A DNA stretch of 64,000 nucleotides from Halobacteriales archaeon YIM A00013 (GTDB lineage: Archaea > Halobacteriota > Halobacteria > Halobacteriales > Haloarculaceae): NCBI GenBank assembly GCA_025041195.1, contig JAKCFM010000001.1, forward strand, positions 1,178,001 to 1,242,000. Direction: 5' to 3'. This document shows positions 49,934-62,040 of the stretch, piece after piece; within the stretch, counting starts at the first letter, position 1, and each line of letters opens with the position of its first letter. The notes beneath the pieces were generated by a model. The model had not been told where the DNA came from. It did not search any database and was given only the letters and a program-made list of their open reading frames with translations. The translations under genes and the position numbers were made by a program.

Positions 49934-51001
49934 TCAGTCCAGGCGATACCGGAGCAAGGCGGCGATACCGCCCAGATTCCGGAGCTGTTGGCCGGGGTCG
50001 AACTCTCCGGAAAAGACGACGATCTCTCCACCTTTCTGATCGACCGCTTCTAAGAGCTCGTTCACGTCTTGTTCGAACTCACCGTCGGTGCCGCGTTCTC
50101 TGCGTAGCACGTCGTCGACGACCAGTAGCGTCTCGATCGCGCCGTACTCAGCGGCGGTTTCGACCGCATCGACGCCGTAGCTGGCTTTTGCGCTCTCGGC
50201 GATCGCGGCCGTGAGATCGTCGATCAGTTCTGCTTCCCTGGCAATGCGGGTTTCTTCCTGGATCTCCTCGACGGCGCCGCGTTTGAGTACTTCGTGCACC
50301 CCCCGGTCGCCAACGGCGGCCGTATCGACCATCGTGATCTCGGCTGCGAGATCTGAATCGTTCGATTCGATGTAGCCGTAGGCGTCCTGTTTCGTAAAGC
50401 CAGGGCCAGCAAGGATGATCGCATCCACATCCATCCGACCGAGCACGGCAGTCAGTTCCGCGAACAGCTCCGATCGCGAACGGGCGTACTCCCCTTTGCC
50501 GGTCGGGCCGGTGAGCGACGTCCGGTGTTCTGCGCCGTACTGGGCAACGGTGTGGACGTGAGCGGCTCCCTCCTCGACGGTTGCGATGGCCACATCCGGC
50601 GTGTCACTCGCCTCGTCGGCCTCGGAGAGTCGCTGGCGCTGGTCGGGCTTCCACCGCTTGGTGATCTCGGTCTCATCGTTCACCTCCACATTGAGCGTGT
50701 GATGAAAGTCCAGCTGGTCCTCTCGCGAGGCGTCGACGATAACACCACCAACCCGCAGTCGGTTGGCAAACCGTGCGAACTCGATCGATTCGACCGACAG
50801 CGTTACGTACATATGTTCGCGCTCGCCACCGGTGTCGCGGAGCTGGTCGTCGTCGCGCGTGACGCGCCGGTGGGTGTCGCCACCGACCTCGTCGCCAGCC
50901 TCAAGCACGTTCGATAGGTGCCAGAGATCGTCCGTGGATTCGGGAACGACCGTGATCCGCTCTCGGCCACCGTCGAGCTGCTGGCGATCGCTGATTCGCA
51001 T
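49934..51001 (-). CDS. pelA: mRNA surveillance protein pelota
   Basis: A 355-residue protein homologous to Dom34/pelota, which with ABCE1 rescues stalled ribosomes. N-domain [12 protein letters not shown], then [28 protein letters not shown] near residue 85; middle domain [21 protein letters not shown] near residue 135; C-domain after residue 270. Its stop is adjacent to that of the RNase Z-like gene with no spacer. Confidence 0.95.
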
Positions 51002-51032
51002 ACTCGGGCTACATCGCCTGGCCGGGTAGTGC

Positions 51033-51809
51033 CTATCGATTTTCGAAGGGCGCTGTCTCGGGGGCGATCGCCTGTCGGTAGCCGCGCCCGACCGCGTACA
51101 GGCCAGCCATCATTCCATACCAGAGCACCGGCAGCCCAACAACAGCGAGCGACAGCAGGGCACCGATGGAACCGATGGTGGCCAACACGGAAACGGCGAG
51201 GACGTAGCCGACGAAAAATCCACTGTGGATGCCGACACGGACCACTGGCTGTGGCGACAGGCTCAGTTTCAGAGTGCCGGTGGCCGCATAGCGAGTGAGC
51301 ATAACCGTCAGCAGATACCAGACCAGCCCCGACGCAAGCGTACTGGTGAACAGACCAAGGAGCCCAATGAGCGAGGGTGATGATGGGATCGATGTCGCCT
51401 GTGAGAGCACCGCCAGTCCAAGCGATGCGCCCGTTAGCCACACGAGCACGAGAAGATTCGCACCCAGAGTCACAATCGTGGCTCCGAGTACGTAGCCCAA
51501 ACAGACCACCCCGACCCGAAAGAGCGGTCGAACGGGTCGAATGGCGGGAAGCGTCCCGCTGGCAGCTACCGCGTGTTCCAGCACGCGCACGTGATAGCCG
51601 GCGATCACGATAGCGCCCAGCAGGGCGAGGAGGCCGCCGAACGCGAGAAGATACGTGGCGCGGTTGAATCCAATCGTGAACTCGCCACTGACGAACCGGC
51701 TGACGGCAATCGCCTCGCGCTGAAGGATGAACAACAAGATGCTCCCCGCAACGAGTCGGCGTTTCCAGCCGTCTCCAGCCACTGGAACGACGAGCGCATC
51801 GCCTAACAT
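51033..51809 (-). CDS. DUF4013 family membrane protein
   Basis: A 258-residue protein with about six membrane helices, ending near a hydrophilic tail. The pattern of paired helices separated by RLRPL-like loops and GYxLG segments fits DUF4013. The ATG at 51809 is used. Role unknown. Confidence 0.7.
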
Positions 51810-51914
51810 GACACACAAACTGGTTTCGAGCCGTCGTTCTTAATATTTGCCTGACATCGGTGCTGGCAAGCTCCTCAGCATGTGATATTTAGCGCTGGCT
51901 ACCCATCGTCTGGC

Positions 51915-52604
51915 ATGGCGTTTACCCTCCGGTGGCTGGCACTTGAAGTGAAAAATCTCGATCGGGCGCGCTCGTTTTACGAACGGGTTCTTGATCGATC
52001 GCTCAGCGAACGGAATCCTGACGAGTTTGCTCTCAGTGCTGGAGAGACAGAACTCATCCTGCGCCGGCCAACCGGCGTTCCACGTGGTGGTCTTCACACT
52101 CATTTTGCGTTCTCGACGCCAGCCGACGCGTATGATAGCTGGTATGACCGTCTCGAATCGCACGTTTCGCTCACTGAGGCGACGTTTGGGTCGGCTCGCT
52201 CGCTCTATTTCGACGATCCGGACGACCACTGCGTCGAGATCGGACAAAAAAACGTTGCTGAGACGGAATCGTTGCTCAGTGGCATTTTCGAAGTCGTCCT
52301 TGAGGTAACGGAGCTCGAACGCGCGCTCGAATTCTATACGGACCTCGGATTCACCATCGTTGACCGTGGAGCGGATAGACGCCGCTGTCGGCTCTCTGGG
52401 GGCACGTTCGATCTGGAGCTGTGGGAGCCACATCTCGGCATTGCAGACGCGAGAGGCGGGTGTCACGTTGATCTAGGGATCGAGCTGTCGGAAGGGGATC
52501 CCGACGAACGCATCGACCACCTCAGTGATCGAGCAACGATCGACCGCGTAGACGATCACACGATTCTGGTCGATCCCGATGGCCACCGTCTCACGCTGTT
52601 GTGA
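51915..52604 (+). CDS. Tandem VOC-domain protein
   Basis: A 229-residue protein with two glyoxalase/dioxygenase-fold units: WLALEVKNLDRARSFYERVL and FEVVLEVTELERALEFYTDLGF at residues about 6 and 125. Ends VDDHTILVDPDGHRLTLL. Metal-dependent ring-cleaving dioxygenases or isomerases are possible; substrate unknown. Confidence 0.8.
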   Translation: MAFTLRWLALEVKNLDRARSFYERVLDRSLSERNPDEFALSAGETELILRRPTGVPRGGLHTHFAFSTPADAYDSWYDRLESHVSLTEATFGSARSLYFDDPDDHCVEIGQKNVAETESLLSGIFEVVLEVTELERALEFYTDLGFTIVDRGADRRRCRLSGGTFDLELWEPHLGIADARGGCHVDLGIELSEGDPDERIDHLSDRATIDRVDDHTILVDPDGHRLTLL

Positions 52605-52892
52605 CTACAGTCGATCGGTATCAACGTGGATTCCTGGCGGAGTCACGATGAGAAAGCCCCTGAAATGAACGAGATGACCTCCCATGTCCTTGATCGTCCG
52701 CGCGAAATCGGCCGCGAGCTCGTTGAGATCGCCTTCAATAGCGAGCACCAGCACGTAGCCGTCCCGAATCGAACCAATCCACTCCGATGGAGACGTGTTC
52801 CCGTCAAGAATGCCCAGCACAATGCGCTGCTCGACGTTCTGCTCGTCCAACTGATCTTCTACTGCCAGCAGATCGAGATCGAAGGTGTCCAT
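52605..52892 (-). CDS. Conserved haloarchaeal protein (DUF5779-like)
   Basis: A 95-residue protein from ATG 52892. It has a repeated beta pattern (VLGILDGNTSPSEWIGSI, YVLVLAIEGDLNELAADFAR) and ends ITPPGIHVDTDRL-like. A conserved haloarchaeal family of unknown function. Stop abuts the convergent VOC gene. Confidence 0.6.
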   Translation of the reverse strand: MDTFDLDLLAVEDQLDEQNVEQRIVLGILDGNTSPSEWIGSIRDGYVLVLAIEGDLNELAADFARTIKDMGGHLVHFRGFLIVTPPGIHVDTDRL

Positions 52893-53144
52893 ATCCACGG
52901 ACTCGCAACCGTCCCCTAAAAAACGCACACTCCTCGACCTATATCCGTCGGATTATGAAGATATCAATCAGTAATGAGAATGGCCCGCTGCGGGAGACGT
53001 TCGCATCCGTCCCGAGAACTGAGAACACGACACAGTAGGCTCGGACTTCAATGGATAATTATTTCTGATTTTCAAATTCCGATGTGGGGTGGTGAGGAAT
53101 CAGTTCGACGAGTAGACTGACATATAAGGTGATCTAATCTCCTT

Positions 53145-53162
53145 CATGACGATTACGTCATG
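53145..53162. promoter_or_regulatory. Perfect palindrome, possible leuA operator
   Basis: CATGACG-ATTA-CGTCATG: two perfect 7-bp arms around 4 bp. It sits about 60 bp upstream of the leuA TATA-like box, and a second TATA-like element (near 53130) would start transcription inside it. This looks like a binding site for a dimeric regulator. Confidence 0.5.
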
Positions 53163-53216
53163 CGGTTTGTTCCTGTCCTGTTGGAGTGGCTGGTGCAGGA
53201 ATCACCGTGAGGGGTA

Positions 53217-53226
53217 GGTTTAAGGC
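53217..53226 (+). promoter_or_regulatory. TATA-like box upstream of leuA
   Basis: GGTTTAAGGC, with TTTAAG centred about 26 bp upstream of ATG 53247. The spacing points to a leaderless start at that ATG, not at the GTG that opens the LeuA frame. Confidence 0.5.
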
Positions 53227-53246
53227 ATGGCTGTGATATTGGACAA

Positions 53247-53330
53247 ATGCACATGAGTGAAACCACGGAGGACACGTCGGCGTCGCCGGCGGGTCGAGTT
53301 CTTGCAGGGCACGTTAGATTCCACTTCTGA
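53247..53330 (+). CDS. Out-of-frame 27-codon ORF at the leaderless start of leuA
   Basis: ATG 53247 (with ATG 53253 two codons on) opens a frame ending TGA 53328-53330. It encodes 27 residues beginning MHMSETTEDTSASPAGRV and ending RFHF. The ATG is the codon that best fits the upstream TATA box. It has few leucine codons (one), so a classical leucine attenuator is unlikely. The SPAGRV end resembles the segment that normally precedes EFxQGT in LeuA, so this may be the true N-terminus of LeuA cut off by a frameshift. Confidence 0.45.
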   Translation: MHMSETTEDTSASPAGRVLAGHVRFHF

Positions 53331-54474
53331 GATCAATCACGCACGCCTTTTCGACACGACGCTCCGCGACGGAGAGCAGTCCCCTCGCACGTCTTTCTCC
53401 TATGAGGACAAACGGGAGATAGCTACAGCGCTTGATGCGATGGGAACGCACGTGATCGAGGCCGGATTTCCCGTTAACTCCACGGCGGAGTTCGAGGCAG
53501 TCCGTGATATCGCTGAAGGCACGTCCACAACAGTCTGTGGACTGGCCCGTGTTGTCGACGCCGATATCGAGGCAGCACTCGATTCGGGTGTCGAAATGGT
53601 GCATCTGTTCGCGAGCACGAGCGACGTGCAGATCGAAGATTCGATGCACTCGACGCGGTCTGCGGTGCTAGAGCGGTCGGTCGAAGCGGTTGACCGGGTG
53701 GCCGACGCGGGCGTGTCGGTCATGTTCTCACCAATGGACGCGACGCGAACTGACGAATCGTTCCTGATCGACGTGATCGAAGGCGTCAGCGACGCCGGGA
53801 CGGACTGGATTAACATTCCAGACACCTGTGGTGTTGCCACTCCCGGTCGATTCAATGCGCTGATCGAGACCGTCTGTGCACACACAGACGCCCGCGTCGA
53901 CATGCACACGCACGATGATTTCGGCCTGGCAACGGCCAATGCGCTCTCTGGGTTTGAAGCAGGGGGTGCACAGGCGCAGGTGAGCGTTAACGGAATCGGT
54001 GAACGCGCCGGCAATGCGGCCTACGAAGAGGTCGTGATGGCGCTCGAAAGCCTCTATGACGTGAGCACGGGTATTGACACGACGCAGTTGATGGAGCTGT
54101 CTCGGCTCATCGAAGCCAAAAGTGACATCCCGGTACCGGCGAACAAGCCTGTCGTCGGCGCCAATGCGTTTGCACACGAATCCGGCATTCACGCCGCAGG
54201 CGTGATCGAAAACGCAGAGACGTTCGAACCGGGTGTGATGACACCAGAGATGGTCGGTGCGAGTCGAGAACTGGTGCTTGGAAAACACACCGGACAGCAT
54301 TCCGTTCGAGAGCGGCTCAAATCGGCCGGCTTCGAGCCGACCGACGACCAGGTGAGCGAAATCACCGATCGCGTCAAAGCCACCGGTGCGAACGACGAAC
54401 GAGTTACCGACGAAACCCTGCGCCGGTTTGCCAGGGAGCTCGACGTTAGTACTGAACAGGTGAGAGTGAACTGA
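53257..54474 (+). CDS. leuA: 2-isopropylmalate synthase, N-terminus uncertain
   Basis: The enzyme condenses 2-oxoisovalerate and acetyl-CoA, first step of leucine synthesis. Landmarks: RLFDTTLRDGEQSP near residue 29, HVIEAGFP, the metal-binding VDMHTHDDFG near residue 213 and NGIGERAGNAAYEE near 247. At about 405 residues it lacks the usual C-terminal LeuA_dimer regulatory domain of about 120 residues. The GTG 53257 start gives an Arg-rich leader that looks non-coding; the true N-terminus probably lies in the other frame. No ribosome site precedes the GTG. It could be a damaged or alternatively started gene. Confidence 0.85.
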   Translation: MKPRRTRRRRRRVEFLQGTLDSTSEINHARLFDTTLRDGEQSPRTSFSYEDKREIATALDAMGTHVIEAGFPVNSTAEFEAVRDIAEGTSTTVCGLARVVDADIEAALDSGVEMVHLFASTSDVQIEDSMHSTRSAVLERSVEAVDRVADAGVSVMFSPMDATRTDESFLIDVIEGVSDAGTDWINIPDTCGVATPGRFNALIETVCAHTDARVDMHTHDDFGLATANALSGFEAGGAQAQVSVNGIGERAGNAAYEEVVMALESLYDVSTGIDTTQLMELSRLIEAKSDIPVPANKPVVGANAFAHESGIHAAGVIENAETFEPGVMTPEMVGASRELVLGKHTGQHSVRERLKSAGFEPTDDQVSEITDRVKATGANDERVTDETLRRFARELDVSTEQVRVN

Positions 54475-54530
54475 TGACTCTCACCGTCTGCTACGACGAC
54501 CAGCAACGGCACAATTGCCGCTCGCCAAAG

Positions 54531-54538
54531 GTTTATGC
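54531..54538 (+). promoter_or_regulatory. TATA-like box of the ilvB leader transcript
   Basis: GTTTATGC is centred about 28 bp upstream of the leader peptide ATG at 54562, giving a leaderless 5' end for the peptide. Confidence 0.5.
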
Positions 54539-54561
54539 ACGATCCACGGTACGTACGAACC

Positions 54562-54621
54562 ATGACACTGGGCTGCACCACGGTGTCGATCCGCATCAGC
54601 CCGATTGTAGGGCCCGCCTAG
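54562..54621 (+). CDS. Putative ilvB leader peptide (19 residues)
   Basis: ATG 54562 to TAG 54619-54621 encodes MTLGCTTVSIRISPIVGPA. Seven... of its residues that matter are branched-chain: Leu-3, Val-8, Ile-10, Ile-12, Ile-15 and Val-16. The start fits a TATA box 28 bp upstream, so it should be translated from a leaderless end. Codons 16-20 form the 5' arm and loop of a hairpin. Enrichment in the end-product amino acids and overlap with the hairpin are what a translation-linked attenuator would show. Confidence 0.6.
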   Translation: MTLGCTTVSIRISPIVGPA

Positions 54622-54628
54622 GCCCTAC
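54607..54628 (+). terminator. Perfect 8-bp hairpin upstream of ilvB (possible attenuator)
   Basis: GTAGGGCC (54607-54614) pairs with GGCCCTAC (54621-54628) around a 6-nt loop. The 5' arm overlaps the last codons of the leader ORF and the loop contains its stop. T-rich DNA follows, including TTTTT at 54653-54657. This can terminate or pause transcription before ilvB. Confidence 0.55.
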
Positions 54629-54733
54629 TCCATCGTTATTTCGTTCACGTCGTTTTTCGCATCGTTCTGGAACAGCAGAGACACAGCAACAGACGTATGT
54701 ATTCGATTAGACACGAAAGAGGTGACACGTTCG

Positions 54734-56497
54734 ATGAGTGAACGTGGTTCGACGGCGATGCCGGCCGAGGAACAGACGACGACAAATGAACCAGCAGAGG
54801 AACCAGCACCGATAACGACGGGCGCCGAGTCGGTGGTCCGGGCGCTCAGTACGGCCGGTGTGAACGCGATGTTTGGCGTGCAAGGAGGGGCGATAATGCC
54901 GGTGTACGACGCGTTGTACGCTGAAACCGACCTCCAGCACGTGACGATGGCACACGAACAGGGTGCGGCCCACGCGGCCGACGCCTACGGCCAGCTAACG
55001 GGTGAGCCAGGGGTCTGTCTTGCGACCTCCGGACCGGGAGCGACGAACCTGGTGACGGGGCTTGCAGACGCTGATATGGACTCTGATCCCGTGATTGCGC
55101 TGACGGGGCAGGTGCCGACCGAGCTTGTCGGTCACGACGCATTCCAGGAGACAGACACCGTGGGCGTCACACGCCCGGTCACCAAGGCGAACTACTTCGC
55201 TGAAGATGCGGATTCAGTAGGCGATCTCGTTGGAAAGGCGTATGCGCTCGCCCGAGAGGGCAGACCCGGACCGACGCTCGTCGATCTTCCCAAGGACGTA
55301 ACAAACGGCGAAACGGACCAGACACCCGGCGCGCCTGCATTGCCAAAATATCACGAAATTCAGGAGATGGCGGACGAGGCTGCGGTCGAGGCCGCAGCGA
55401 GAGCGCTCGAAGCATCCAGTAAACCGCTGGTGCTCGCGGGTGGTGGCGTGATCAAAGGCGACGCCACAGAACAGCTGCGAACGTTCGCACTGCGTCACGA
55501 GGTTCCGGTGGTGACAACGATGCCGGCCATCGGGAGCTTCCCCGAAGACCACGAGCTCGCGCTCGAATGGGCCGGCATGCACGGCACTGGCTACGCGAAC
55601 ATGGCGATCTCACACTGTGATTGTCTGCTCGCTATCGGGACGCGGTTCGATGACCGACTCACAGGTGGCATCGAGACGTTCGCACCAGCAGCAGAGATCA
55701 TCCACGTGGACATCGATCCCTCTGAGATCTCGAAAAACGTTGCGGCCGATATCGCACTGATCGGAGATGCGGGCACGGTGATCGAACAGCTCGCGAGCGC
55801 AATGGATCGATCGCCATCGGCGGCTGACTGGCGCACAGACTGTCAGCGCTGGAAGTCGACCTACGAGATGGGCTATGACTGTCCGAAAGATGGCCCGCTA
55901 AAGCCACAGTTTGTGGTCGAGGCGATGGACGAGCTCACGCCGGATGAGACGATCGTCACAACCGGCGTTGGCCAACACCAGATGTGGGCGGCCCAGTACT
56001 GGACCTACACCGAGCCACGGACGTGGATCTCATCACACGGGCTCGGAACGATGGGATATGGCCTGCCGGCCGCAATCGGCGCAAAGGTGGCCTGTCCGGA
56101 CCGAGAGGTCGTCTGTTTCGATGGCGACGGCTCGTTTTTGATGACGATCGAAGAGCTGAGCGTTGCCGTTCGAGAGAACCTTGACATCACGGTGTGCGTG
56201 CTGAACAACAACGCCGTGGGGATGGTTCGCCAGTGGCAGGACGCCTTCTTCGAAGAGCGTCGGATGGCCTCGGAGTATCCCTGGGTGCCAGCATTCGACA
56301 AACTGGCCGAATCGTTCGGTGCTGCAGGGTTTACCATCAAAGAGTATGACGAGGTCGCAGAGACGCTCGCAGACGCCCGGTCGTACGACGGCCCGAGCAT
56401 CGTTGACGTGTTTATCGACCCCGAAGAAAACGTCTACCCGATGGTGAAAAGCGGTGGCAACAACGCTGCATTCGCACTCTCGGAGGACCAACTATGA
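54734..56497 (+). CDS. ilvB: Acetolactate synthase, large subunit
   Basis: A 587-residue ThDP enzyme that makes acetolactate or acetohydroxybutyrate, first common step to valine and isoleucine. After a variable acidic N-terminus it reads GAESVVRALSTAGVNAMFGVQGGAIMPVYDAL, then the catalytic Glu in AHEQGAAHAADAYGQ near residue 78. The ThDP motif is GDGSFLMTIEELSVAVREN near residue 463. The start at ATG 54734 follows a good ribosome site (GAGGTGA, spaced 8 nt), as expected on a leadered mRNA. Overlaps ilvN by 4 bp. Confidence 0.95.
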   Translation: MSERGSTAMPAEEQTTTNEPAEEPAPITTGAESVVRALSTAGVNAMFGVQGGAIMPVYDALYAETDLQHVTMAHEQGAAHAADAYGQLTGEPGVCLATSGPGATNLVTGLADADMDSDPVIALTGQVPTELVGHDAFQETDTVGVTRPVTKANYFAEDADSVGDLVGKAYALAREGRPGPTLVDLPKDVTNGETDQTPGAPALPKYHEIQEMADEAAVEAAARALEASSKPLVLAGGGVIKGDATEQLRTFALRHEVPVVTTMPAIGSFPEDHELALEWAGMHGTGYANMAISHCDCLLAIGTRFDDRLTGGIETFAPAAEIIHVDIDPSEISKNVAADIALIGDAGTVIEQLASAMDRSPSAADWRTDCQRWKSTYEMGYDCPKDGPLKPQFVVEAMDELTPDETIVTTGVGQHQMWAAQYWTYTEPRTWISSHGLGTMGYGLPAAIGAKVACPDREVVCFDGDGSFLMTIEELSVAVRENLDITVCVLNNNAVGMVRQWQDAFFEERRMASEYPWVPAFDKLAESFGAAGFTIKEYDEVAETLADARSYDGPSIVDVFIDPEENVYPMVKSGGNNAAFALSEDQL

Positions 56498-57135
56498 GCC
56501 AGGGACTTGAGGGCCCGGCGCCAGAAGAGCGATCGCTTCCCGAGGCCAGACGGTCTCCGGAAGGGATCAGACTCGACCCAGCAACCGGTGTCGACCACTC
56601 GCCGCGGCGGACGGTCATTTCAGCGCTCGTTGCGCACGAACCGGGCGTGCTCTCTGAGGTGTCCGGCCTGGTGAGTCGCCGGCAGTTCAACATCGAGAGT
56701 CTCACGGTCGGTTCGACGACGAATCCCGAGACAGCGCGGATCACGCTCGTGATCGAAGAATCAGAGCAGGGCATTCGACAGGTCGAAACCCAGCTCAAAA
56801 AGCTCTTGCCGGTGATTTCCGTGCGAGAGCTCAACAACGACGCCGTGCGTCGCGAGCTCGTCGTGCTGAAAGTTCACGCCGAGGCGCCCGAGCAGGTGCA
56901 CGCCATCACCGAAATGTATGATGGAACGGTGTTGGACGCCGGCCCGCGAACGATCACGGTCGAAATCACGGGCGATGAGCTGAAGATCGACGACGCGATC
57001 GACGCCTATAACCAGTTCGGCATCCGTGAGATTGCCCGAACCGGCCAGACCGCCCTTGCACGCGGTGATGAATGGACGACGCATGCTGAGGAATCGCGAT
57101 ACGAACGAACGACACCAGTACATTCCAATGACTGA
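56494..57135 (+). CDS. ilvN: Acetolactate synthase, small regulatory subunit
   Basis: A 213-residue protein with two ACT-like domains (about residues 40-115 and 125-195). The first has VISALVAHEPGVLSEVSGLVSRRQFNIESLTVG. It activates IlvB and confers valine feedback. An N-terminal tail of about 35 residues precedes the ACT fold. Overlaps ilvB by 4 bp and ilvC by 8 bp. Confidence 0.95.
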   Translation: MSQGLEGPAPEERSLPEARRSPEGIRLDPATGVDHSPRRTVISALVAHEPGVLSEVSGLVSRRQFNIESLTVGSTTNPETARITLVIEESEQGIRQVETQLKKLLPVISVRELNNDAVRRELVVLKVHAEAPEQVHAITEMYDGTVLDAGPRTITVEITGDELKIDDAIDAYNQFGIREIARTGQTALARGDEWTTHAEESRYERTTPVHSND

Positions 57136-58177
57136 GAACGCAACGATCTACTACGCGGACGATACGGACCGAGCAGCAATCGAGGACCGCACCGTAGCTG
57201 TCATCGGCTACGGGAGCCAGGGCCACGCCCACGCGATGAACCTCAACGACAACGGTGTCGATGTCGTGGTCGGGCTGCGCGAGGACTCTTCATCGCGCCC
57301 AGCAGCAGAGGAGGCCGGACTCACGGTGGCTACCCCAACGAGGGCGGCTGCACAGGCGAGCGTGATCTCCATGCTCGTTCCAGACACCGTACAACCGGCT
57401 GTGTACGAGGCGATCGAAGACGAGCTAGACGCAGGTGATACGCTCCAGTTCGCACACGGATTCAACATTCACTACGGGCAGATCGATCCGGCCGAAGACG
57501 TGAACGTCACGATGGTCGCACCCAAAAGCCCCGGGCATCTCGTCCGACGGAATTTCGAGCATGACCAGGGAACGCCGGGACTGCTTGCCGTCTATCAGGA
57601 TCCCACCGGCGAGGCAACCGACATTGGGCTCGCCTACGCCGATGCGATCGGCTGCGCGCGGGCCGGCGTCGTCGAGACCACCTTCAAAGAGGAGACGGAG
57701 ACGGATCTGTTCGGTGAACAGGCCGTCCTCTGTGGTGGCGTGACGAGTCTGGTGAAACACGGCTATGAGACGCTCGTTGATGCGGGATACAGCCGGGAGA
57801 TGGCCTACTTCGAGTGTATGAATGAGCTGAAACTGATCGTCGATCTGCTGTATGAGGGTGGATTGGCCGAGATGTGGAATTCGGTCTCAGACACCGCCGA
57901 GTACGGCGGATTGACCCGTGGTGATCGCATCGTCGACGAAGACGTGCGAGCAAACATGGAGGAAACGCTTGCGGCGGTGCAAAACGGTGAATTTGCACGC
58001 GAATGGATTGTGGAAAACCAGACCGGTCGGCCGAGTTACACACAGCGCCGGCAGGCCGAGCTCGATCACGATATTGAAGCCGTGGGTGCCGAACTCCGCG
58101 AGCTGTTCGCCTGGAGCGCAGCGCCAGATGTAGAAGAAGAGACAACCGAACGCAACGGCGTCCCAGCCGACGACTGA
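57128..58177 (+). CDS. ilvC: Ketol-acid reductoisomerase
   Basis: A 349-residue class I KARI. NAD(P)-binding GYGSQGHAHA near residue 26 and a loop LREDSSSRPA that favours NADPH (Ser residues binding the phosphate). The active-site Glu/Asp occur in LFGEQAVLCGG near residue 200 and YFECMNELKLIVDLLYEGG near 225. ATG 57128 lies within the end of ilvN (8-bp overlap). Confidence 0.96.
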   Translation: MTENATIYYADDTDRAAIEDRTVAVIGYGSQGHAHAMNLNDNGVDVVVGLREDSSSRPAAEEAGLTVATPTRAAAQASVISMLVPDTVQPAVYEAIEDELDAGDTLQFAHGFNIHYGQIDPAEDVNVTMVAPKSPGHLVRRNFEHDQGTPGLLAVYQDPTGEATDIGLAYADAIGCARAGVVETTFKEETETDLFGEQAVLCGGVTSLVKHGYETLVDAGYSREMAYFECMNELKLIVDLLYEGGLAEMWNSVSDTAEYGGLTRGDRIVDEDVRANMEETLAAVQNGEFAREWIVENQTGRPSYTQRRQAELDHDIEAVGAELRELFAWSAAPDVEEETTERNGVPADD

Positions 58178-58182
58178 CGAGC

Positions 58183-58398
58183 ATGACAGGCAACACACTC
58201 GGCGATATCGAACACACGCAGCCGAACACTGACGAGCCGTTCGGGACGAATCTGGTCTATCGACGCGGGCCGGTTGTCATCGCTGATGGTGGCCGCGCCG
58301 AAAGCGAGGCGAAAACGCTCGGCGCAATCGATCACGTTGGCCCGATTGACGAGCAAACGGCACACAACCGCGTGTTCGACCGGGGAGGCCCCAAATGA
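58183..58398 (+). CDS. Small conserved protein between ilvC and leuC
   Basis: A 71-residue protein starting [11 protein letters not shown], with [18 protein letters not shown] near residue 20 and ending FDRGGPK. No membrane helix. ATG is 5 bp after ilvC, and the stop overlaps leuC by 4 bp (ATGA). Position inside the operon suggests a role with LeuCD or IlvC, but no such function is known to me. Confidence 0.75.
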
Positions 58399-59816
58399 GC
58401 GAGCGAACGCTCTACGATACCGTGTGGGATCGCCACCACGTGACGACACTTCCGAACGGACAGGATCAGCTGTTCGTGGGGCTGCACCTGATTCACGAGG
58501 TGACGAGCCCGCAGGCGTTTGGCATGCTCAGAGAGCGCGACATCGACGTGGCCAGACCGGAGCTGACCCACGCGACGGTCGATCACATCGTGCCGACGGC
58601 CGATCAGTCTCGGCCGCTGTCGGACGATGCGGCCGAAGAGATGATGAGCGAGCTCGAACGCAACGTTCGAGCGTCCGGTATCCAGCTGGACGATCCGACG
58701 AGCGGCAATCAGGGGATCGTTCACGTGATCGGCCCGGAACAGGGGCTGACCCAGCCCGGCATGACGATCGTCTGTGGTGACAGCCACACCTCAACACATG
58801 GTGCGTTTGGAGCACTGGCGTTTGGGATCGGAACGAGCCAGATCCGCGATGTGCTCGCCACACAGACGATCGCCATGGAGAAGCAGAAGGTTCGAAAGAT
58901 CGAGGTAACCGGCGAACTTGGCCCGCACGTCGGTGCCAAAGACGTAATCCTCACGATCATCCGCGAGCTCGGCACCGACGGCGGTGTCGGCTACGTCTAT
59001 GAGTACGCCGGCGAGGCGATCGAAGCGCTTGACATGGAGGGTCGAATGAGCATCTGCAACATGTCGATCGAGGGCGGTGCTCGCGCAGGCTACATCAATC
59101 CCGACGAAACGACGTACGAGTGGCTCCGCGAGACCGAGGCGTTCGACGGTGCTCCAGACGAGTTTGAAGCGCTCAAGCCGTACTGGGAGTCGATTCGGAG
59201 CGATGACGACGCCGTTTACGATGACGTCGTCGAGATCGACGGCGATGCAATCGAGCCAGCCGTCACGTGGGGAACCACCCCTGGCCAGGTTGTTGGCATT
59301 AGTGAGCCAATTCCTGACCCGGCCGAGCTCGCTCCAGAAAAGCGTGACACCGCCCGAGCGGCACAAGAACACATGCGCGTCGAGCCTGGCGAAACGATGG
59401 CCGGCTACGAGATCGACGTTGCCTTTCTGGGGTCGTGTACGAACGCCAGACTCAGCGATCTCCGCAGAGCTGCCCGAATCGTCGATGGACAGTCCGTTGC
59501 TCCCAGTGTGCGAGCAATGGTCGTCCCAGGCTCTCAGCGCGTCAAAGCCGCCGCGGAACGCGAAGGGCTCGACGAACGGTTCGAAGCCGCCGGATTCGAG
59601 TGGCGCGAAGCGGGCTGTTCGATGTGCCTTGGTATGAACGAAGACCAGCTCTCGGGTGAGCAGGCGAGTGCCAGCTCATCGAACAGAAACTTCGTCGGCC
59701 GGCAGGGCTCTCCTGACGGGCGGACCGTCCTGATGAGCCCCCGGATGGTCGCAGCGGCCGCGATTACCGGCGAGATTACGGATGTCCGGACGCTCCCGGA
59801 GGTGTCAGTAGCATGA
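58395..59816 (+). CDS. leuC: 3-isopropylmalate dehydratase, large subunit
   Basis: A 473-residue aconitase-family protein with [4Fe-4S] ligands: Cys in [14 protein letters not shown] near residue 347, and two in [12 protein letters not shown] near 407. Also [21 protein letters not shown] near residue 131. With LeuD it isomerises 2- to 3-isopropylmalate. Overlaps leuD by 4 bp. Confidence 0.96.
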
Positions 59817-60415
59817 GCGACGGCGTTCCATCCGTCGAGCGCGTCTCTGGGACGGGAATCTACGTCCGTGGAAATGATATCGACACGGACCAGATCATTC
59901 CCGCTCGGTTCATGAAGGTCGTCACGTTCGATGGCCTCGGCGAGTTCGCCTTCTTCGATCAACGGTTCGAAGACGATGACACTGAGACTGACCATCCGTT
60001 CAACGACGGCCGGTTTCAGGACGCTTCCGTGCTCGTGGTGAACGGAAACTTTGGCTGTGGGTCGTCGCGAGAGCACGCTCCCCAGGCGCTGTTGCGCTGG
60101 GGAATTGATGCGGTCGTCGGTGAGAGCTTCGCCGAGATTTTCGCAGGGAACTGTCTCGCGCTGGGAATTCCAACCGTCACTGCAGACCAGGCGTCGATTA
60201 CGGCGCTCCAGAAGCGGATCGACGACAGCCCTGACACGACGATTACCGTGGATGTCGCCGCCGAAACGGTCAGCTATGGCGACGAAACGATCGACGCTGC
60301 CGTTGATGCTGCCCAGCGAACCGCGCTCGTCGATGGCATCTGGGACACGACGGCCCTAATGCGATCCAACGAAGCAGCGATCGAAGAAACTGCCGCGGAG
60401 CTGCCATATCTATGA
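59813..60415 (+). CDS. leuD: 3-isopropylmalate dehydratase, small subunit
   Basis: A 200-residue swivelling-domain protein. [16 protein letters not shown] near residue 20, [16 protein letters not shown] near residue 78 and [14 protein letters not shown] near 110. Partner of LeuC; overlaps leuC and leuB by 4 bp. Confidence 0.95.
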
Positions 60416-61389
60416 CCGAAACGATTGCCGTTATCCCCGGAGATGGCATTGGGAAGTCGGTGGTGCCCGCAGCCGTTCGAGTGCTTGATTCGCTCGATCT
60501 TGGGCTATCGTTCGTAATGGCCGATGCGGGGGATGAGACCCGTGCGGACACGGGCACTCCACTCCCCGACCGGACGATCGAGACCGTCGAATCGGCCGAT
60601 GCAACGCTGTTCGGTGCTGCCGGCGAAACTGCCGCAGACGTAATATTGCCGCTGCGTTCGGTCGTCGGGTCGTACGCCAACATTCGCCCGGCGCGAACGT
60701 ATCCTGGCGTTGCTGCGGTGGCGCCGGATACTGATCTCATCTTCGTCCGTGAGAACACGGAAGGTGTCTACGCGGGCATCGAGAGCTCAATCGAACCCGG
60801 CATTACGACGCTTACTCGTGTGGTGACCGAGGACGCCTCGCGAGCGATCGCCGAAATGGCCGTCGAATACGCCACTGATCGCGATAGCTCGTTGACGATC
60901 GCGCACAAAGCAAACGTCATGCGCACTACGGACGGGCTGTTTCTTGACACCGCAACAGCGGTGGCGAACGAGCACGGCATCGATTACGACACCGCGCTCA
61001 TGGACGCGCTTGCCATGCAGCTCGTGATGGAGCCCGAGGCGTACGACGTGGTCGTCTGTCCGAATCTGGCTGGCGATCTGCTCTCCGATCTGGCAGCCGG
61101 GCTCGTCGGCGGTCTCGGCTTGCTTCCGAGTGCGAACATTGGTGGGGATAATGCGCTGTTCGAGCCCGTGCACGGCACCGCACCGGATATAGCCGGGGAG
61201 GGGATAGCCAATCCAACCGCGACGATCCTTTCGAGTGCGATGTTGCTTGAGTATCTGGGCTACGATCAGGCAGGCAGGCAGGTTCGTGCAGCCGTCGAGG
61301 CATCGCTCGAAAACGGGCCGAAAACACCAGATCTCGGTGGCAATGGATCAACCGAAGACGTGACCAGCGCGGTCATTGACCGGCTCTGA
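60412..61389 (+). CDS. leuB: 3-isopropylmalate dehydrogenase
   Basis: A 325-residue isocitrate/isopropylmalate dehydrogenase family enzyme. [13 protein letters not shown] near residue 11, [11 protein letters not shown] near residue 115 and [19 protein letters not shown] near 252. Oxidises 3-isopropylmalate using NAD. Last gene of the operon. Confidence 0.93.
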
Positions 61390-61398
61390 GCCCCACCG

Positions 61399-62040
61399 CT
61401 ACCGACGGTCGAGTTTTTCAACGAGCGCGTCGGTTAGCCCGCTGAGCGACGCACTTCCCCACAGACCGACAATGAGACCGCCAACGGCGTCGAAGATCAG
61501 ATCCATCATCGTGTCAGTCAACCCGTACTGCGTGAGAATTGAGCCGCCGATATACAGTGGCGTGATGATGCCAAGGAGAAATTCAAGAATTTCCCAGAGC
61601 ACGCCAAACGCAACGACGAACAGCACGGTGAACACGACCATGAACTGTGGCGGAAACGAGAGCTGCTCCGTGTGTAAATCGATGGCGCGAACGGTCGTAT
61701 ACCCCACGGCCGCCACGACGGATGCAGAAAGCGCATGGGTCAGATGGTCCCACCACCAGAACGACTGGTAGAACGAGACGCCGCTTCCCGGTACCGCCAC
61801 GGTTCCCAGTGCGTGAAAGAACACCGCGGCCGTGATCCACAGCGTGAGGCCTGGATTCATCGGGAGCCCGTAATCCCGCTGGAGAATTGCCGGGAGAAAC
61901 GACACCACCACGCCAATAGCGCTGTTGACGATGACGCTCACATTCCGGTGGGTGACGCCAACCAGAAACATTCCGATGAGAACGATCTGCATCGCGACCG
62001 CGAGCCGACGCTTGGGTCGCTTTCGGTGGAGCCATTTCAT
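61399..62040 (-). CDS. DUF2238/YjdF-like membrane protein
   Basis: A 213-residue protein with about six membrane helices and the signature WWWDHLTHALSASVVAAVGY near residue 95, then LWEILEF near 148 and DTMMDLIFDAVGGLIV near 175. This resembles YjdF/DUF2238. Overlaps the next gene by 4 bp. Role unknown. Confidence 0.75.
   Translation of the reverse strand: MKWLHRKRPKRRLAVAMQIVLIGMFLVGVTHRNVSVIVNSAIGVVVSFLPAILQRDYGLPMNPGLTLWITAAVFFHALGTVAVPGSGVSFYQSFWWWDHLTHALSASVVAAVGYTTVRAIDLHTEQLSFPPQFMVVFTVLFVVAFGVLWEILEFLLGIITPLYIGGSILTQYGLTDTMMDLIFDAVGGLIVGLWGSASLSGLTDALVEKLDRR

Follow-up and report, generated by a model that had tools for sequence, protein, structure and literature searches.

The ilvBNC-leuCDB operon of the Halobacteriales archaeon YIM A00013 is preceded by a short ORF whose last codons run into a hairpin, and this element is probably (at a rough estimate 0.72) a leader-peptide attenuator of the operon, read by the ribosome and sensing amino acids. 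The element lies in a 64,000-nucleotide stretch of contig JAKCFM010000001.1 (positions 1,178,001 to 1,242,000, referred to as the window), and its features are listed in table 1. The role of the leader as an amino-acid sensor is well supported: the leader codons track the product of the downstream gene in each of four gene types, with the remainder of the peptide free, which points to the ribosome as the sensor of aminoacyl-tRNA. Termination at the T tract downstream of the hairpin would be the simplest readout of such a sensor, with a translational readout through a second small ORF (uORF2) as its main rival.

Table 1. Features of the leader region and the downstream operon (window coordinates)
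Feature	Coordinates	Strand	Basis
BRE/TATA-like promoter CCAAAGGTTTATGCA	54525..54539	+	sequence; ~30 nt 5' of leader ATG
Leader ORF (uORF1) MTLGCTTVSIRISPIVGPA, then stop	54562..54621	+	19 aa, translated from sequence; putative leaderless start
Presumed sensor codons ATT GTA (Ile-Val), 5' edge of hairpin	54604..54609	+	codon conservation in relatives
Hairpin GTAGGGCC-CGCCTA-GGCCCTAC	54607..54628	+	8 perfect bp, stop in loop; covariation, folding
T5C tract, candidate termination site	54653..54658	+	sequence; T4+ position in relatives, H. volcanii terminator data
Second small ORF (uORF2) MYSIRHERGDTFDE, then stop, overlapping ilvB start	54697..54741	+	
Shine-Dalgarno-like AGAGGTGA of ilvB	54718..54725	+	sequence; 8 nt 5' of ATG 54734
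ilvB, acetolactate synthase large subunit, first gene of operon	54734..56497	+	TIGR00118 above cut-off
ilvN	56494-57135	+	above curated cut-off
ilvC	ends 58177	+	above curated cut-off
leuC	58395-59816	+	above curated cut-off
leuD	59813-60415	+	above curated cut-off
leuB, archaeal type	60412-61389	+	LEU3_arch match, below its cut-off

The Leader ORF and Its Promoter

A preliminary description of this DNA had proposed a leaderless 19-residue ORF with six Leu, Ile or Val residues, a perfect 8-bp hairpin that overlaps its last codons and holds the stop codon in the loop, T-runs followed by a ribosome site for ilvB, and the genes ilvBNC-leuCDB downstream. Each of these elements was recovered at the positions in table 1, including the six Leu, Ile or Val residues among the 19 of the leader peptide and all six operon genes (leuB by a match below its cut-off), and the distance from TATA box to ATG fits the proposed start. 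The second small ORF had been missed. The TATA-to-ATG spacing at the window leader implies a leaderless transcript that starts at or adjoining the leader ATG. A TATA-like sequence was present 27–32 nt 5' of a leader start in 90 out of 107 ilvB loci, a figure that is sharpened because the start and box closest to 28 nt were picked at each locus. Depending on the start chosen, the leader is 19–63 codons long across the loci. Within one genus the variable leader sites were spread 4/3/3 over the codon positions, without third-position bias, and this test therefore gives no independent proof of leader translation. The leader is presumably co-transcribed with ilvB.

Conservation Upstream of ilvB

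The upstream regions of IlvB relatives were collected from the order and from named genomes, and were screened for the pattern GTA[CG]GG[GC] followed by an in-frame stop 3–4 codons on and a C-rich 3' arm. The ORF, the hairpin and the in-frame stop were found together in 107 out of 116 ilvB-upstream loci, distributed over many families of a single order (Halobacteriales) and including the genera Halovivax, Haladaptatus, Halorubrum, Halolamina, and Natrialba. The invariance of GTA is partly by construction, since the pattern demanded it, but neither the 107/116 share nor the codon preceding GTA was fixed in this way. That codon encodes Ile in 103 of the 107 leaders (80 ATT, 22 ATC, 1 ATA). In nine ORFs of the window, mainly from the operon, ATT makes up only 23% of the Ile codons and GTA 7% of the Val codons. 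Of the eight residues that end at GTA, 58% are Ile, Leu or Val, compared with 20% in window proteins, again mainly from the operon. The leader stop is always the third or fourth codon after GTA; its identity is variable (88 TAG, 13 TAA, 6 TGA) and its place in the hairpin is constant. The C-terminal motif of the leader (IVGA or IVGV) is conserved throughout the order. Conservation of the peptide is confined to the residues at the hairpin, and its N-terminal sequence is free. Two genomes of the same genus (G002 and G006) had identical C1 coordinates and scores wherever they were compared, and their chromosomes are apparently near-identical.

A Stop-in-Loop Hairpin

The TAG stop codon of the window leader (54619–54621) has its TA inside the loop, and its G opens the 3' arm. 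Folded alone, the window hairpin has an energy of −15.7 kcal/mol (z = −3.2), and one out of 200 dinucleotide shuffles folds as well. Counts of stem pairs relative to downstream controls are only weakly informative due to the GC content, and a covariation test was used instead. Among 86 non-redundant sequences, 10 double-change cells were found in the stem compared with 2.5 in shuffles, and none of 500 shuffles reached this value, the cells being counts of sequences rather than of independent events. The double-change cells include the clade of the window itself (GGCC/GGCC type) as opposed to the common GGGGC/GCCCC form. A lack of conservation of ORF and stem, which the preliminary description had named as refuting its reading, was not borne out: both are retained, with conserved Ile and Val codons at the hairpin and covariation in the stem. 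RNAalifold returned a shorter and shifted stem from the same alignment, which is attributed to the mixture of loop lengths in it.

Leader segments complementary to either arm, as expected of a competing antiterminator pairing, were rarer than in shuffles; with neither arm having a conserved alternative partner, the classical antiterminator of the trp and ilv layout is missing. A search of window positions 50000–62000 against Rfam yielded no family at the gathering threshold.

The T Tract and the Second Small ORF

In the 50 nt after the leader stop, C makes up 45% and G 15%. T runs of at least four, mostly TTTTC, occur only within 0–50 nt past the stop (47 runs, compared with none at 50–110 nt) and are not contiguous with the hairpin but lie 10–45 nt further downstream. 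Such a run follows the stop in 44 out of 107 ilvB loci and is lacking in the other 63, so that a T-stretch terminator is not universal. In Haloferax volcanii the intergenic termination motif consists of T stretches ending in C, and a T stretch alone suffices as terminator; in a reporter, T5C terminated at 95% and a hairpin terminated too, at 59% (PMC7237163).

uORF2 is present in 88 of the 107 loci and overlaps the ilvB start by an exact ATGA in 77 of them; ATGs in the leader are distributed 91:22:6 over the three frames. This ORF, between the hairpin and ilvB, often carries an RYR or YRP motif.

Related Leaders before valS, pheS, and trpS

A covariance model built from the ilvB element matched once in the genome of the window and detected additional, second copies among relatives. 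Of these, the stronger ones are located 5' of valyl-tRNA synthetase genes (valS) of one class, with the exception of one that precedes an ilvB paralogue. The valS leaders are rich in Val and nearly free of Ile (Ile in at most 1 out of 27), ending for example in VFVGAP, VFVVGAS or VVAAVVVGAS before the stop. Ile directly precedes the hairpin Val in 103 out of 107 ilvB leaders but in 0 out of 17 valS leaders (p = 1.7e-17), the 17 being the leaders that end in VG, tabulated by hand; among ten further valS leaders that were read separately, one contains Ile (L298, ending in VIVAPR). The valS leader of the window's genome (L301) is the GTG-start ORF MSTRSIPGTLACPVTGSGVFVGPQ, with its stop again at the loop and its stem arms exchanged (GGCCCC-CAATA-GGGGCC), a form that several relatives have in common; in some relatives (e.g., L282, L288, L296) the valS stop lies beyond the hairpin. 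Haloarchaea have two distinct valS classes, both of which are found in some genomes including that of the window, and the leader occurs only at the lower-scoring class. At an ilvB paralogue, the second ilvB-type gene of genomes G009 and G062 (L047, L077, L216), the leader ends in SPVFVGAA, with Phe-Val and no Ile, and resembles that of valS.

Leaders before pheS were searched for separately from the covariance model, with at least two Phe in eight residues as the criterion. A small ORF with two to four Phe at its end (MAxEP...GFGFFFA) was found in 22 out of 29 pheS loci, and the leader in the window's genome reads MAETPLSVRTDLRARGSSRGPFFSA. In the pheS upstream regions (L252–L281) the Phe leader is followed by a long helix in which GGTGGA...GAAACC recurs as an element, and a separate sequence resembling a promoter, GGAACCGTTAAC, stands immediately 5' of pheS. 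As a search likewise independent of the model showed, a second trpS gene is preceded by leaders with Trp-x-Trp, namely MASRRATAWPWRSPSSGSDK in the window's genome and MVSTSRATCWRWRSTWEVDSIAV in Haloferax larsenii; the leaders of H. larsenii and H. mediterranei are both 23 aa long. At trpS (L302–L310, L401–L404) a long inverted repeat TCCACTTCCC...GGGAAGTGGA encloses the Trp codons, a layout unlike that of ilvB and valS. The amino-acid specificity expected of such leaders holds at other genes too, with Val without Ile at valS, Phe at pheS and Trp at trpS.

No such leader was found at leuS (0 out of 17 loci), at valS of type A (0 out of 30 loci in a GTA-GGG motif scan) or at ileS (five loci examined by eye). 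Two small ORFs at trpC satisfy a loose Trp criterion and neither is leader-like. The trpC upstream regions (L363–L391) carry a recurrent TTATGTACA...GTACAnTAATG around the TATA box and start, which resembles a transcription-factor operator. A phylum-wide search with the covariance model detected the ilvB/valS element in Halobacteriales only; four weak matches outside the order (E-values 8e-5 to 9e-4) appear to be chance matches, with no leader at any of them and at least one falling inside an amidotransferase-like coding sequence.

Proposed Mechanism and Alternative Explanations

In the proposed mechanism, transcription would begin at or beside the leader ATG and a ribosome would initiate at the 5' end of the transcript. 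Under a shortage of tRNA charged with Ile, Val or possibly Leu, the ribosome would stall on the last codons (Ile-Val among them), which form or adjoin the 5' arm, and would physically prevent the hairpin; when aminoacyl-tRNA is plentiful, it would reach the stop in the loop and leave, allowing the hairpin to form. The geometry suits such a switch: the sensor codons stand where the hairpin starts and the stop lies within it, so that a ribosome that stalls would cover the 5' arm and one that has left would expose both arms. The hairpin, together with a C-rich and G-poor leader no longer covered by ribosomes, would favor termination at the T tract, possibly aided by aCPSF1/FttA, and lower the expression of the operon. 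Readthrough transcripts would extend to uORF2 and then ilvB, and ilvB translation is probably coupled to uORF2, since the uORF2 stop usually overlaps the ilvB start.

Three other explanations were weighed against this attenuator. Control might be exerted on translation, with the leader ribosome and the hairpin governing how ribosomes load or reinitiate at uORF2 and ilvB, and no premature end of transcription. The conservation of uORF2 and its ATGA overlap with ilvB, an arrangement known for coupling, would agree with such control, as would a T tract that is weak or absent at many loci. However, the hairpin arms have no conserved downstream pairing partner, and the leader stop lies ~70 nt 5' of uORF2, beyond the 30–40 nt over which translational coupling acts in H. 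volcanii (PMC12548453), which leaves purely translational attenuation an unlikely explanation.

It is highly improbable that the palindrome serves as a DNA operator for a dimeric transcription factor, with the small ORF incidental: a perfect or near-perfect dyad does lie just 3' of the promoter and GTAGGGGC is strongly conserved in sequence, but the outer three pairs are unpaired in 26–42 of the 86 sequences, so that the outer symmetry is lost at many loci, the arms are swapped before some valS genes, and the cognate codons are conserved along with the in-frame stop. The spacing between the arms also varies (loops of 3–7 nt among the ilvB loci), which fits an RNA hairpin more readily than a DNA dyad bound by protein. 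Slighter still is the chance that the ORF is the gene of a functional small protein, with the hairpin and the position before the operon secondary. Such a protein would account for a C-terminal IVGA or IVGV kept over the whole order, but not for an unconstrained N terminus of variable length, for conservation limited to the hairpin residues, or for a choice of codons in the motif (ATT, which is rare, and GTA, in part fixed by construction) that exceeds what the amino acids need.

Novelty and Significance

The preliminary description had called a leader-peptide attenuator unusual in archaea, and searches of the open-access literature turned up no report of one. A 2014 archaeal transcriptome paper regarded attenuators and riboswitches in Archaea as being without direct experimental support (PMC4247193), and the main Haloferax TSS study considered control by structured leaders not typical of haloarchaea (PMC4983044). 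Conserved codon-specific leaders before four amino-acid gene sets point the other way. The odds are about even that haloarchaea, separately from bacteria, evolved attenuators in which a leaderless peptide serves as the sensor and a single stop-in-loop hairpin with a T tract as the switch, the archaeal termination there probably being assisted by aCPSF1/FttA. They would act at ilvB and valS, and the leaders of pheS and trpS would be related to them. The leader offers a natural system for studying a possible functional coupling between transcription and translation in archaea.

Comparison with Known Systems

The uORFs listed in the H. volcanii TSS map before trpS (HVO_A0127, 23 aa) and pheS (26 aa), both in long 5'-UTRs, match the leader class described here; the table of uORFs in that study has no entry for ilvB, and the parts of its text that were consulted make no mention of cognate amino acids or attenuation (PMC4983044).

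T-box riboswitches likewise provide amino-acid-specific control of ilv and synthetase genes, but a T-box binds uncharged tRNA directly, whereas in the haloarchaeal element, which matches no Rfam family, the specificity is carried by the ORF. Bacterial attenuators of the pheS and trpS type place a leader rich in Phe or Trp codons before the cognate synthetase gene. The haloarchaeal leaders are alike in being cognate and differ in sequence and structure, and no homology is implied.

The closest parallels are the leaders of E. coli ilvL and ilvB and of Corynebacterium ilvBNC, which likewise consist of a short ORF rich in cognate codons, a terminal hairpin and a T tract downstream. The reading as a translation-coupled attenuator in the preliminary description is supported by the cognate codons and a hairpin that covaries; the layout departs from the bacterial one of three hairpins, and the T tract is displaced from the hairpin rather than abutting it. 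The archaeal element differs from the bacterial ilv leaders by its leaderless start, by a single hairpin with the stop in its loop and no antiterminator partner found, by a T tract 10–45 nt away and by uORF2 with its predicted coupling to ilvB, and shares with them the idea that a stalled ribosome would alter the formation of the hairpin.
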